NCBI GenBank assembly: GCA_012271025.1
Contig: JAAXHF010000365.1
Location: 1-28,415 of the forward strand
Length of the DNA: 28,415 bases
Origin: Deltaproteobacteria bacterium
GTDB taxonomy: Bacteria; Desulfobacterota_B; Binatia; Bin18
Direction of reading: 5' to 3'
The notes beneath the pieces were generated by a model that had not been told where the DNA came from, searched no databases, and worked only from the letters and a program-made list of their open reading frames with translations. This document shows, piece after piece, positions 11,308 to 18,258 of this stretch. How positions within the stretch are numbered: position 1 is the stretch's first letter; every line of letters starts with the position of its first letter. A program made the position numbers and the translations under genes.

Positions 11308-11337
11308 TTGTCATCGCCTGCTTCTTGCCCTAAGAAT
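11308..11337 (+). promoter_or_regulatory. Candidate sigma70-type promoter for the Mut7-C/selenoprotein pair
   Basis: TTGTCA (11308-11313) is five of six to the -35 consensus, and TAAGAAT (11331-11337) is a weak -10 match at about 17 bases. A transcript would begin near 11343, giving a short leader before ATG 11371. The same stretch holds a TTCTT...AAGAA inverted repeat. Confidence 0.3.
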
Positions 11338-11370
11338 GAACTCGCCAACACAGTCCGGTCACCGTCTCGT

Positions 11371-11886
11371 ATGCCACAAGCCACGCCTGCCGAGCAAACA
11401 GCGCCTGTCACGTTTCTTGCAGACCGAACGGTCGGCAAACTGGCCCGCTGGCTGCGCATCCTGGGCTATGACACGCGCTACCTGCCCCAGCTCTCACCGG
11501 CCGGTCTGGTGCGCGAGGGCCGTCGTCAGGGCCGGGTCATTCTGACCCGCAACACCCGCATTCGCCGCTTCAGGGACGCACCGACGTTCGTGTTTATCGA
11601 GCACGACCGTTTTCGAGACCAGCTCAAGCAGGTGGTGACGACACTCAAGCTCGACCCCGTCGCCAGGCTGCTGAGCCTGTGCGTGGCCTGCAACCAGCCC
11701 CTTGAGGTGGTGGCTAAAGACAGCGTCCAGACCAAGGTGCCGGCGTATACGTGGCAGACCCAGACCACCTTTCACCGCTGTCCGCGCTGTCGGCGGATAT
11801 ACTGGGGGGCGACGCATCGAGAGCATATCCGGGCCGAGCTGAGGCAGCTCGGCTTGGTCGAGCGGGAAGACCGGCCCGAAGGCTGA
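11371..11886 (+). CDS. Mut7-C RNase-fold domain protein with zinc ribbon
   Basis: A 171-residue protein matching the Mut7-C (PF01927) PIN-like family. The N-terminus has VTFLADRTVGKLARWLRILGYDTRYL, with the acidic residue and the KLARWLR helix that define the family, then ILTRNTRI. The C-terminus holds two CxxC knuckles, CVACNQ and CPRCRRIYW, forming a zinc ribbon, followed by HREHIR. ATG 11371 is chosen because the domain starts soon after; an upstream frame to 11308 overlaps the divergent promoter. Members are presumed ribonucleases from the fold, but biochemical roles are poorly known. The putative selenoprotein gene begins six bases after the stop, so they share a transcript. Confidence 0.88.
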   Translation: MPQATPAEQTAPVTFLADRTVGKLARWLRILGYDTRYLPQLSPAGLVREGRRQGRVILTRNTRIRRFRDAPTFVFIEHDRFRDQLKQVVTTLKLDPVARLLSLCVACNQPLEVVAKDSVQTKVPAYTWQTQTTFHRCPRCRRIYWGATHREHIRAELRQLGLVEREDRPEG

Positions 11887-11892
11887 GGACAC

Positions 11893-12264
11893 ATGGCTGA
11901 GTACTGGCTGTTGTGGGACGGCGGCTGAGGTTTATGACGCCGCCTCGTCGCCTGGGTCAAGCGACACGATACGGCCGATATCATCCGCGCCGTGGCCTAC
12001 CAGGACGCGCCGTGGCCGCCGATGACGGATGAGCTGGCCGAGCGCTGCCAGCGCGCCGTGCAGGTCATTACGCCCGCCGGACAGACCCTGGCCGCCGGCC
12101 GGGCGAGCGTGTGTGTGCTGGGTCTGGTCGGCTATCCGCGGCTGGCCCGCCTGGCCGCCCGGCCACCTTTCATCTGGGCAGTCGAGTTGGGCTACTGGAT
12201 GGTCGCCCGCAACCGGCGGTTTGTGAGCCGGCTGGTAGCGCGGATAGGCCGACGAAGCGGGTGA
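11893..12264 (+). CDS. Putative selenoprotein: DCC-family (DUF393) thiol-disulfide oxidoreductase with UxxU
   Basis: Reading from ATG 11893 (GAGG five bases upstream) gives 123 codons in one frame, interrupted only by TGA at codon 12 (11926-11928) and codon 15 (11935-11937). The protein begins MAEYWLLWDGG, then U-G-L-U, then RRLVAWVKRHDTADI, and later AYQDAPWPPM, RAVQVITPAGQ and AVELGYWMVARNRRFVSRL. This is the DCC-family pattern, whose defining motif is DxxCxxC followed by Arg. Both TGA codons fall exactly on the two redox cysteines, giving D9-x-x-U12-x-x-U15. A SECIS-like hairpin lies just downstream. The length is normal for the family. DCC proteins are thioredoxin-like and poorly characterised; I infer a diselenide/selenol redox site. 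A doubly mutated pseudogene is the main alternative and seems unlikely. It follows the Mut7-C gene by six bases. Confidence 0.85.
11945..11969 (+). promoter_or_regulatory. Candidate bacterial SECIS hairpin
   Basis: GTCGC (11947-11951) pairs perfectly with GCGAC (11961-11965) around the nine-base loop CTGGGTCAA. A two-base bulge then allows TC/GA to extend the stem (11945-11946 with 11968-11969). The loop contains GGUC (11955-11958), the element recognised by SelB in the E. coli fdhF SECIS. It lies 17 bases after the second UGA and 26 after the first; fdhF has 18. One hairpin could therefore serve both codons. No folding program was run. Confidence 0.65.
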
Positions 12265-12357: not shown

Positions 12358-14346
12358 TCACTGTCCGGTCCGAGCCGGTGCGTTGTCCGCAGGCGCCAGG
12401 ACGAAGTTCTGGTTGGCCTGCTGCCAGACCAGGCGGACCGCTTCGCCTGGGCTCGGAAAGTCCGCAACGAGCGTCTCACCCGTGACGCCCTGCAGAAACT
12501 CCTCACCCAAGGTGGTCACGGTAAAGGTCGCCCGCCCGAACGGAACTCCATCGGCCACGGCGCGCACGGTAAACATGGCGTCGTCTCTGGGCGGGGCTGC
12601 GTTGAGGAGTAGCAGGTTCCAGTTGAACAACAGGCCGAAGCCGTTATCCGTGTCGTCGCAGGCCTCCTCCGTGTCGGCCCGGTCGGTGCCGTAGGCGGCT
12701 TCCAGGCGGTGGGTGGCGTTTATGCCGTCGATCTCCAGTTCGACTGTGTCGGCCTCACACACCCAGCCGGACAACAGGCTGATACCGCTCTGGAACGATC
12801 CCGCCTCGGGATTCTCCAGCGCACCCCGCACAAAAGTGACTTCTAAGTTGTACGCCCCGGTCGCGCCCCCCTGCCCCTGGAGGTCGAGGACGACTGAGCC
12901 TGCCTGCACGGGGGCGTCGAGACGGTCAGCCTGCCGACTGCCACGCGTGGGACCGGACGCCAAAGGCACGCCGTTCTGCCAGATCGTGCCGCGGAGTGGC
13001 GCGCCGCCAAAGGTGTCCACAAAAACGAGGCCCCGCCCCGGGACGGTCACGGCCTGCTCTACGGTGTGAATCCCGGCAGTGGCGCGCACGCTCACCGCAT
13101 AGACGTTGTTGCTGCCCGCGTCGGCGGGTCTCTCGTAGTCGGGGATGTTCACGAAGCGCAGGACGCCGCCGCTCATGGTGAAGTCGCCCCGGTCGGTTCC
13201 GGCCAGAGACCACGTGGGCGACACGCCCTCCGGGTCACTGACGCTGTATTCTGCAACCGACCCAGTGCCGCTCTCGGCATACGACGAGACACGGAACAAC
13301 TCTGTCAGCGTGTGCACTTCATCTACGGGGGTGACGGTGACAGTGACGCCCAGTGTCGCGGGACGGGTGTCCCCATCAGAGGCTTCCACAGTCACTTCAT
13401 AGACATTGTTGTCGTCAGCGTCGGCGGGTTGCTCATAGTCGGGGGCGGCATTGAAACTCAGGACGCCGTTGCTGATGGTGAAGGCGCCGCTGTCCGTTCC
13501 ACTCAGCGACCAGGTGAGCGACTGCTCGCCTTCCGGGTCGGTGGCGGTGTAGGTGGCGACCGGGAGCAGACCGTTCTCAGCATATTCGACACTGTCTTTG
13601 CCGGTCAGCGTGGGCGATTCATCCACATTGGTGACGGTGATGGAATCGGAGTCGGCGGAGGGGTCAGTGGCCGTCACGGGGTCGGTGGCCGTCACGATGA
13701 CGGCGTAGCGGTCCTTGGTCTCGTAGTCGAGCGCCGTCCCGGCTGCCACCGACAGTTGACCGGTACTGGTGTTGATATCGAACGATCCGGCGTCGGCGCC
13801 CGAAAGCGTGTAGGTCAGCGTCGGGTCGTTGGGGTCGCTAGCCGCGACCGGGGAGCCGACGTTCGTACCGGCTGCCGCATTCTCATCGACGCTCCGGGTG
13901 GTGGCGGCTCCTTCCGGGAAGTAGGGCGCGTCGCCTGAGGGCGTCTCGGTGACCGTGTCTGACCAGACACCGGCGCCCTGGTCGTTGACCGCCCGCACCT
14001 GTACGTCGTACTCCGTGCTGTCGGTCAGGCCGGAGATGGTGTAGGACAGGCTGCCGGAAGTCCAGGCGTTATCTTCCACAGTCCAGTTGGCGTCGTCCGT
14101 CTCGTCGGCGGCGGTCTCAATGTAGCGCACATCGTAGGCTTCGATGGCTGATCCGCCGGTATCGGATGGCGCGGTCCAGGTGACGCCAAGGGTGAAGCCG
14201 AGAGAGCTGCTGCGGCCCGCCACAACCGAGCTGATGGTGGGGGCGCCGGGTACGGTCTGTGCCCAGACTTCACCGGAAACCGGCAGCAGCCAACACAGTC
14301 CCCACACTGCCGTCCGCAGCAGTGTTCTCCCCACGTCCGAGATCAT
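12358..14346 (-). CDS. Secreted FN3/cadherin-repeat protein
   Basis: A 662-residue exported protein. Residues 1-30 form a signal peptide ending VWAQ. About 31-137 is a fibronectin type III domain (VPGAPTISSVV...YDVRYIE...STEYDVQVRAVND). Three cadherin-like Ig repeats follow (about 140-440), with RSVDENAAAGTNVG, LDYETKDRYAVIVTATD, and twice-repeated PDYE[QR]PADA with NNVYxVxVxA. The last ~180 residues include SFQSGISLLSGWVCEADTVE, YGTDRADTEEACDDTDNGFG, FTVTTLGEEFLQGV and VWQQANQNFVLAP. I recall this as a recurrent C-terminal module of large secreted proteins in marine proteobacteria-like genomes. The start lies 16 bases after the stop of the upstream secreted gene. Cell-surface adhesion or structural function is inferred; no catalytic motif is seen. 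Confidence 0.88.
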   Translation of the reverse strand: MISDVGRTLLRTAVWGLCWLLPVSGEVWAQTVPGAPTISSVVAGRSSSLGFTLGVTWTAPSDTGGSAIEAYDVRYIETAADETDDANWTVEDNAWTSGSLSYTISGLTDSTEYDVQVRAVNDQGAGVWSDTVTETPSGDAPYFPEGAATTRSVDENAAAGTNVGSPVAASDPNDPTLTYTLSGADAGSFDINTSTGQLSVAAGTALDYETKDRYAVIVTATDPVTATDPSADSDSITVTNVDESPTLTGKDSVEYAENGLLPVATYTATDPEGEQSLTWSLSGTDSGAFTISNGVLSFNAAPDYEQPADADDNNVYEVTVEASDGDTRPATLGVTVTVTPVDEVHTLTELFRVSSYAESGTGSVAEYSVSDPEGVSPTWSLAGTDRGDFTMSGGVLRFVNIPDYERPADAGSNNVYAVSVRATAGIHTVEQAVTVPGRGLVFVDTFGGAPLRGTIWQNGVPLASGPTRGSRQADRLDAPVQAGSVVLDLQGQGGATGAYNLEVTFVRGALENPEAGSFQSGISLLSGWVCEADTVELEIDGINATHRLEAAYGTDRADTEEACDDTDNGFGLLFNWNLLLLNAAPPRDDAMFTVRAVADGVPFGRATFTVTTLGEEFLQGVTGETLVADFPSPGEAVRLVWQQANQNFVLAPADNAPARTGQ

Positions 14347-16924: not shown

Positions 16925-17695
16925 ATGTACCCGGTTCTCCTGAGTCTCGGCCCGGTGACCGTCTACAGCTACGGGGTGATGATGGCGCTCGGCTTTGTGG
17001 CGGCCGGCTGGGTGATCAGAAAAGAGCTGCTCGACCAGGGTCGCAACCCCGAGCTGGCCTCGAGTTTGGTGCTGTGGGCGGCCGTGGGCGGTCTGATCGG
17101 CGCGCGTCTGCTGTTCATTGTCGATGCCTGGTCGGCATTTGTGGCCGATCCGTGGGCGCTGGTGCTGACCGGCGCCGGATTCATCTGGTACGGCGGTCTG
17201 CTGGGCGGCATCGCCGGGGTGAGCCTGTGTATCCGGCGCTATCGGCTGCCCTGGCTGCGGACGATGGACATGGTCGCGCCGGCCATTGCGCTGGGCCACG
17301 GGATCGGCCGGATTGGCTGCCATCTGGCCGGCGATGGCGACTGGGGACCGCCGACCGGTTTGCCCTGGGGCGTGGTGTACAGCGAGGCGGTTGTCGGCTG
17401 GCCCCATCCGCCGGGAGTGGCCGTCCATCCCACCTCGCTGTACGAGTGCGCCGCCTACGTCCTCATCTTCGCCTTTTTGCGCCAGCGCCGCACCGCGCCG
17501 CATCAGCCCGGCGCCCTGTTCTGGGGCTATCTGGTCCTGGCCGGGCTGGCGCGTTTCGGGCTGGAGTTTGTCCGCGTCAACCCCGAACTCGCGTTTGGCC
17601 TGTCCATGGCCCAGGTGCTGAGTATTCCGCTGGTTGGCCTGGGCGCTGCGCTGCTGCTCAGACCCGCCGGCCTGCGTCAGGAGCACGCCGGATGA
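16925..17695 (+). CDS. lgt: Prolipoprotein diacylglyceryl transferase
   Basis: A 256-residue polytopic inner-membrane enzyme that moves diacylglycerol from phosphatidylglycerol to the lipobox cysteine of prolipoproteins. Start ATG 16925 ([20 protein letters not shown]) aligns with the usual N-terminus; an in-frame ATG at 16841 is too early and overlaps dtd. Signature regions are [10 protein letters not shown], the catalytic-region segment [20 protein letters not shown], and [15 protein letters not shown]-like LEFVRVNPE. The dtd gene diverges from the same 83-base gap. The lipoprotein aminopeptidase at 9557 is a likely client. The stop overlaps the ATG of the TlpA-like gene. Confidence 0.96.
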
Positions 17696-18258
17696 GAAAG
17701 TGGCTGGCCCTCGGTCTGGTCGCGTTGGGGTGTGGCTTTGTGCTGCTGACCCTGACTCCCTCCGGGCCGACCTTGCCCAGGGCGGCTGCGGATTTCGTAT
17801 TGCCTGACATGCAGGGCCAGGTCGTGCGTCTGTCGCAGCTGAAGGGCAAGGTCGTGTTTCTCAACGTGTGGACGACCTGGTGTCCGCCGTGCCGGAAAGA
17901 AATGCCGACCATGCAGGCGCTGTACCGTCAACTCCAGGACCAGGACTTCATGCTGCTGGCCGTCAGCCAGGACGTGGATGGCCGCAAGACCGTACTGTCG
18001 TATCTGGAGGAGGGCGGCTATACCTTTCCGGTCTTGTTGGACGTGCGGGGAGAAGTCGGCAAGAAGTATGGGGTGACCGGCTACCCGGAGACCTTTCTGA
18101 TTGATCGCCAGGGCATGATTGTGCATCACCATATCGGCTATAACAACTGGGCCAGTCCCGAGTCGCTGGCCGCCGTCCGGGGGCTGATTGAGCGTGGGGT
18201 ATGGACCCCACCGGCGGGCGGTGACGTGCCCGGCGAACAGATGCCGCTGCGGCCCTAG
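17692..18258 (+). CDS. TlpA/ResA-like membrane-anchored thioredoxin
   Basis: A 188-residue thiol-disulfide oxidoreductase. A single N-terminal membrane anchor or uncleaved signal (WLALGLVALGCGFVLLTL, residues 4-21) places the domain in the periplasm. The redoxin domain begins near 33 (ADFVLPDMQGQVVRLSQLKG), followed by VVFLNVWTTWCPPCRKEMPT with active-site Cys64 and Cys67, and the cis-proline region GVTGYPETFLIDRQG. ATGA overlap with lgt couples translation. TlpA/ResA proteins reduce target disulfides, often for cytochrome c maturation; no ccm gene is in this window. A proline-rich tail ends the protein. Unlike the putative selenoprotein, this one uses ordinary cysteine codons. Confidence 0.92.
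   Translation: MRKWLALGLVALGCGFVLLTLTPSGPTLPRAAADFVLPDMQGQVVRLSQLKGKVVFLNVWTTWCPPCRKEMPTMQALYRQLQDQDFMLLAVSQDVDGRKTVLSYLEEGGYTFPVLLDVRGEVGKKYGVTGYPETFLIDRQGMIVHHHIGYNNWASPESLAAVRGLIERGVWTPPAGGDVPGEQMPLRP

Follow-up and report, generated by a model that had tools for sequence, protein, structure and literature searches.

The stretch of DNA analysed here (28,415 nucleotides; hereafter referred to as the window) carries a putative selenoprotein gene of the DCC family, with selenocysteine (Sec) predicted at both positions of its active site (UxxU; Table 1). From the ATG at 11893 the frame runs to the stop TGA at 12262–12264, and its only internal stops are the TGAs at codons 12 and 15, which lie 9 nt apart. 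With Cys substituted at both TGAs, the protein matched the PF04134 (DCC1-like) model at 41.6 bits (curated cut-off, 27.8; E 3.4e-10), the only Pfam match at E up to 10. In the family alignment, each of the 25 rows had either Cys or TGA at columns 12 and 15; the DxxCxxC register is thus present as DxxUxxU and not in its strict Cys version. These results confirm from the window sequence the 123-codon frame with just two internal stops, both TGA, described in an earlier note on this DNA, and they uphold its assignment of the gene to the DCC (DUF393) family and its placement of the TGAs on the redox Cys positions of DxxCxxC. A PDB sequence search with the family profile returned nothing better than E 0.9, and Foldseek gave no match at E < 0.001, its best rows (PDI, mycoredoxin and GST) all being weak. 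An Rfam gathering scan of the window gave 0 matches, and ARAGORN found 0 tRNAs in it. Not every thioredoxin-like gene of the window uses Sec, since the AhpC/TSA family gene has a Cys-type WCPPC site.

Table 1. Features in and around the putative DCC-family selenoprotein gene (positions in the window)
Feature	Position	Strand	Remarks
Mut7-C RNase-domain gene (upstream neighbour)	11308..11886	+	ends 6 nt before the DCC start
DCC-family (PF04134) putative selenoprotein gene, UxxU active site	11893..12264	+	123 codons and a TGA stop
First predicted Sec codon, TGA, codon 12	11926..11928	+	on the first Cys of DxxCxxC
Second predicted Sec codon, TGA, codon 15	11935..11937	+	on the second Cys of DxxCxxC
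SECIS-type hairpin, stem 11946–11954 with 11958–11966, loop GGU 11955–11957	11946..11966	+	from covariation, synonymous-codon null and held-out model
Truncated ORF without the active site, GTG start 3′ of both TGAs	11992..12264	+	from standard ORF finding
Cadherin and fibronectin type III domain protein	12358–14346	-	adjoins the DCC gene
AhpC/TSA (redoxin) family gene	17692–18258		Cys-type WCPPC site

We collected relatives of the gene from other genomes (loci and genomes are given below as L and G numbers). The nearest genome, G001, has 32% of sampled 31-mers in common with the window, and its DCC gene, at 89% protein identity, has both TGAs. A one-genome-per-species scan yielded 6 loci. The UxxU loci among them belong to MAGs with the titles Candidatus Binatota, Armatimonadaceae, Myxococcales and Cyanobacteria, and the CxxC loci to Candidatus Binatia SKYG48 and to Chthonomonadaceae. 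With an E limit of 1e-3, 33 of 145 related genomes gave matches, many of which were distant DCC proteins of the Cys type. With the limit at 1e-15, matches came from 36 of 377 genomes of Myxococcota, 62 of 291 of Armatimonadota and 1 of 386 of Cyanobacteriota, the last being the already known L020 locus. This UxxU locus, in a MAG labelled Cyanobacteria (G148), reflects either transfer or misbinning. For the comparisons we took 30 of the 34 relatives' matches (L001 and L022–L050), 30 of the 36 from Myxococcota and 30 of the 63 from Armatimonadota, and added 4 more loci of the Armatimonadota search that were chosen for a visible TGA. Duplicates were left out (L022, L063, L091, L023 and L093, identical to L016, L019, L018, L017 and L021, respectively, and L124, identical to L020), and the counts do not include the distant DCC sequences below 90 bits (L037–L048 and L050), a site-less match (L036) or a locus giving no match (L049).

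The 81 distinct sequences above 90 bits, the window included, comprise 23 UxxU, 5 CxxU, 1 UxxC and 52 CxxC forms; the resulting 29:52 ratio of Sec to Cys forms is not a frequency, since the loci are part of the matches and four were picked for TGA. The 29 Sec forms come from Myxococcota (18), Armatimonadota (6), Binatota (4, with the window) and the Cyanobacteria-labelled MAG (1). The first site is encoded by TGC in 46, TGA in 24 and TGT in 11 of the sequences, and the second by TGC in 32, TGA in 28 and TGT in 21; neither TAA, TAG nor any other codon occurs at either site in the 81 sequences. Within the 29 Sec-type genes TGA stands at the redox Cys sites only, and there is no further in-frame stop between codons -8 and +95 from the first site. 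An in-frame upstream ATG, GTG or TTG is present in 28 of the 29, L086 having none across 28 open codons. The active-site context, WDGx-U-G-[FL]-U, is kept across phyla in the part 5′ of the internal GTG. In the sole UxxC form (L123, G590) the C-terminal frame departs from the family, perhaps by a frameshift.

The pattern bears on the simplest alternative, a decaying DCC gene with two chance nonsense mutations. Standard ORF finding does give a truncated ORF, as it would in a pseudogene, but both TGAs are common to relatives in several phyla, the 81 sequences lack TAA and TAG at the sites, the 29 Sec-type genes are free of other stops, and the hairpin described below appears to be under selection. 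On the shared TGAs, the open frames and the selected hairpin we reject the pseudogene, to which we give practically no probability. The earlier note had judged a chance pair of nonsense mutations unlikely, and the recurrence of both TGAs in relatives of several phyla, in a gene that has not decayed, agrees with that judgement. TGA at the same sites, for which it had suggested looking in related genomes, is found at one or both of them in 28 Sec-type sequences beyond the window, that of G001 included; the further decay in close relatives that it had named as contrary evidence was not seen.

Relatives of the Mut7-C gene lie upstream of the DCC gene in the window, in L001 and L016 (all UxxU) and in seven CxxC Binatota loci (L024–L030). 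Since Mut7-C stands upstream of both UxxU and CxxC forms, the exchange of Sec and Cys seems to have occurred within one orthologous locus. No neighbour is a partner common to all phyla in the flanks, mostly of 1.5–3 kb: Mut7-C accompanies the gene in Binatota and DUF2071 in Armatimonadota. In the latter phylum, a same-strand gene family lies 3′ of the DCC gene in 19 loci, 18 of them Cys-type (L021, L092, L097, L100–L103, L105, L107, L110, L112–L119 and L122), and both of its tested members matched DUF2071. A quick maximum-likelihood tree, built without the two site columns, gave 12 Sec/Cys changes by parsimony, with many weak forks; the starred branches force only 2–3 such changes. One starred set joins the window, L001 and L016 (UxxU) with eight CxxC Binatota sequences, and another, of Myxococcota, joins three CxxU sequences with one UxxU sequence.

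The earlier note had reported a SECIS-like hairpin next door to the gene. A hairpin is present and comparatively supported, but it lies inside the gene, directly 3′ of the second TGA, and not beside it. In the window 7 of its 9 stem pairs form, the outermost (11946/11966) and an inner one (11952/11960) being C.A; the outermost pair is formed in only 11 of the 29 family members. As a quantitative assessment we counted paired cells in the fixed nine-pair stem and compared them with a null in which every codon was redrawn from the synonymous codons pooled over the same genes. Of the 261 cells in the 29 Sec forms, 220 are paired; the null gave 125.7 (sd 6.2), with a maximum of 145 in 2000 draws, and the protein sequence is therefore not the explanation of the pairing. 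At the same stem the 52 Cys forms pair in 185 of 468 cells (null 191.5). At least seven stem pairs form in 26 of the 29 Sec forms. When the 45 nt following the second site were folded by minimum free energy (MFE), 24 of 26 Sec forms had the stem, closed by a 3-nt loop, at a constant position (L120, L122 and L123 lie outside the 26). The exceptions were two CxxU forms: L067, whose MFE fold prefers another pairing, and L109 (G735), which is without the conserved hairpin and may have a different SECIS or an assembly error.

When the partner columns of the alignment were slid by 1–3 positions, pairing fell from 84.3% to 46% or less. Two-sided changes occurred at 6 of the 9 pairs (2 of 500 shuffles were as high) and in 21 cells, with a covariation score of 0.227 (each 0 of 500 shuffles), slid versions scoring at most 0.136; the count of further pair types was not unusual, being reached by 111 of 500 shuffles. 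RNAalifold chose the inner seven pairs, four with two-sided changes, with a small covariation term (-0.38). The 3′ arm contains AGG in 24 of the 29 Sec forms as against 1 of the 52 Cys forms, CGN otherwise prevailing for Arg in these genes. A covariance model for which we used 24 hairpins from outside Binatota, with L109 left out, scored the four Binatota hairpins at 29.6–40.5 bits (36.9 for that of the window, E 1.2e-9), scores that come partly from sequence also fixed by the protein; the next match in the 37,755 bases searched, which is the next best in the window, had 12.0 bits. Among 25 Cys-form loci the best score was 20.9 bits and the others were below 16. The best was that of L017, a CxxC locus of Binatia SKYG48 (positions 684–719, E 5e-4), where the match may be left over from an ancestor with Sec. 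Taken alone, the window hairpin is unremarkable: its folding stability is no better than that of shuffles (z -0.45 to 0.98), and 11.6% of resampled versions pair equally well. Its support is comparative, and it is by these comparisons that the hairpin is judged to be under selection in the TGA forms only.

In PMC13188914, most bacterial SECIS elements are described as having a loop of 3–9 nt with a G in its first two positions, an upper stem of 4–16 bp, a distance of 16–37 nt from UGA to loop and an MFE of at most -7.5 kcal/mol. In the window the start of the loop is 26 nt away from the first TGA and 17 nt from the second, and the 45 nt 3′ of the second TGA have an MFE of -14.0; a single hairpin thus fits this model for both codons. 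Four of the 5 CxxU forms, and the sole UxxC form (L123), have the stem in an unchanged position, so one hairpin appears able to serve either codon. The same facts can be turned towards a variant of the selenoprotein reading in which just one UGA is usefully decoded as Sec, the other mostly terminating translation or being read by another tRNA: there is one hairpin for two codons, and CxxU (5) and UxxC (1) forms exist. We consider this unlikely, as the TGA pair is retained in 23 sequences and the spacing between TGA and loop is in the accepted range for both.

Another alternative concerns the database entries. The active site is absent from 24 of 45 protein-database relatives, whose predicted proteins begin at the restart codon or later. 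Unrecognised Sec codons would give such entries, and some of the 24 may instead be contig-edge fragments or have other origins. The same entries would be produced if translation terminated at the TGAs and restarted downstream (at GTG 11992 in the window), so that a short leader and a C-terminal protein would be made separately. Between the window, L001 and L016, three close sequences of Binatota, the part 5′ of the internal GTG shows few changes (2 synonymous, and 3, 1 and 2 nonsynonymous), numbers too small for a dN/dS verdict and by themselves no proof that this part is translated. Against a restart, the part before the GTG keeps the WDGx-U-G-[FL]-U site across phyla, the distance from the first site to the next start codon varies between 6 and 46 codons (most commonly 22 or 32), the product would be without its redox site, and the hairpin appears to be selected in TGA forms only. 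On the conserved site, the variable next start and the TGA-linked hairpin we rejected the restart as very improbable. The finding points to a gene-calling error that strips the active site from database proteins.

We then surveyed the Sec machinery in the carrier genomes. The earlier note had proposed a search for this machinery, and it is present in close kin: the nearest relative, G001, has selB (383 bits), tRNA-Sec (72 bits) and selA, the last about 50 nt from the tRNA-Sec gene. G002, of the same genus and 87% complete, has selA and selB, with no match for tRNA-Sec; G133 (81% complete) has selA, with selB not found, and selB was likewise not found in G591. Counting selB over its cut-off and tRNA-Sec over its gathering score, with E-value limits that differed between searches (the later tRNA-Sec search being run with stricter filters), both were found in 24 of 28 Sec-form genomes, at least one in 27 and neither in 1 (G593). 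The corresponding numbers for 52 Cys-form genomes were 29, 32 and 20, respectively. For selB alone they were 25 of 28 against 32 of 52. Lineage accounts for part of the association between the Sec form and the machinery (Fisher p 4.5e-4), since the machinery also occurs in 32 of the 52 genomes with a Cys form; many of the latter genomes seem capable of decoding Sec. Among 14 named control genomes, selB was over the cut-off in 2, selA was found in 1, and tRNA-Sec was over the cut-off in 5 at E 1e-8 and in 3 at 1e-9. Because the controls match, the tRNA-Sec model is not fully specific and tRNA-Sec alone is weaker evidence. The genome with neither, G593, carries the CxxU locus L122, which has a good hairpin.

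The machinery also bears on a selenium-free reading of the open frame, in which UGA would code for an amino acid (Trp, Gly or Cys) throughout the genome or via a special tRNA. The open frame, and nothing more, speaks for such a reassignment; on the other side, the DCC gene and its upstream neighbour both end in TGA, TGA stands within the 29 genes at redox Cys sites only, the nearest kin have selA, selB and tRNA-Sec, and the hairpin appears to be selected in TGA forms only. We consider reassignment scarcely conceivable, and its genome-wide version was rejected on the use of TGA as a stop, the Sec machinery in kin and the TGA-linked hairpin.

The gene thus combines homology to a known family, cross-phylum exchange of TGA and Cys at both sites, a selected hairpin and Sec genes in nearly all carriers. 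Its product is very probably a functional DCC thiol-disulfide oxidoreductase with Sec in place of both redox Cys residues. We infer that Sec is inserted at both codons by one SECIS: SelB and Sec-tRNA-Sec, bound to the single hairpin 3′ of the second UGA, would decode both UGAs, each of which lies within the accepted distance of the hairpin loop. The first helix of the product would begin with a diselenide/diselenol pair (U-x-x-U), and its presumed redox function, based on diselenide chemistry, would be electron exchange with disulfides or oxidised targets. More broadly, it is likely that these genes make up an undescribed and widely spread selenoprotein family, in which one SECIS decodes two UGAs to give a diselenide site and in which UxxU, CxxU, UxxC and CxxC forms have been repeatedly exchanged in one protein group. 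Such a family, unlisted as far as the open-licence papers searched go, would add a UxxU member to the bacterial selenoproteome. Its relatives with zero, one or two Sec residues could serve as a test series for the decoding of two UGAs by a single SECIS and for the value of a diselenide. If the reading is true, they form a natural series in which to examine the service of two codons by one SelB-SECIS complex and the gain from two seleniums as compared with one or none.

Two Sec residues in a redox motif, as predicted for the window gene, reportedly occur in a published diselenide protein. That family is different from DCC, is mostly eukaryotic and uses a 3′-UTR SECIS. Among bacterial selenoproteins, a 2026 inventory of 119 families or subfamilies lists UxxU in its Table 1 (PMC13188914) for PF00578, NF041115 and FmdB (TIGR02605). 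PF04134 is absent from that table, and DCC, PF04134, COG3011, YuxK and DUF393 from the accompanying text; the main texts of PMC12013277, PMC9312934, PMC2398784, PMC1794560 and PMC5029168 contain no word beginning with DCC. The earlier note had raised the question whether DCC selenoproteins are already described; in the open-licence papers searched, we found no description of one. The Prx-like thiol:disulfide oxidoreductase selenoproteins (PF00578; UxxC and UxxU forms in the same table) have the bacterial UxxU motif in common with the window protein but belong to a different Pfam family, and the window protein gives no PF00578 match. The metal-binding protein NF041115 (a putative mercuric reductase) and the FmdB-family protein (TIGR02605) are likewise listed there as UxxU with two Sec residues but are different families by that listing, and even with E values of up to 10 allowed, the window protein matches no NCBIfam model. 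The closest known system is the Cys-type DCC/DUF393 protein (PF04134, YuxK), with which the window protein has in common the Pfam family, the DxxCxxC register and, in Binatota, the Mut7-C locus; it differs in its predicted Sec at both sites (at one or both in its relatives) and in the SECIS-type hairpin. It is well supported, on sequence comparison, that the window gene represents a Sec variant of this known oxidoreductase family and, as far as the open-licence literature goes, an unlisted selenoprotein family.
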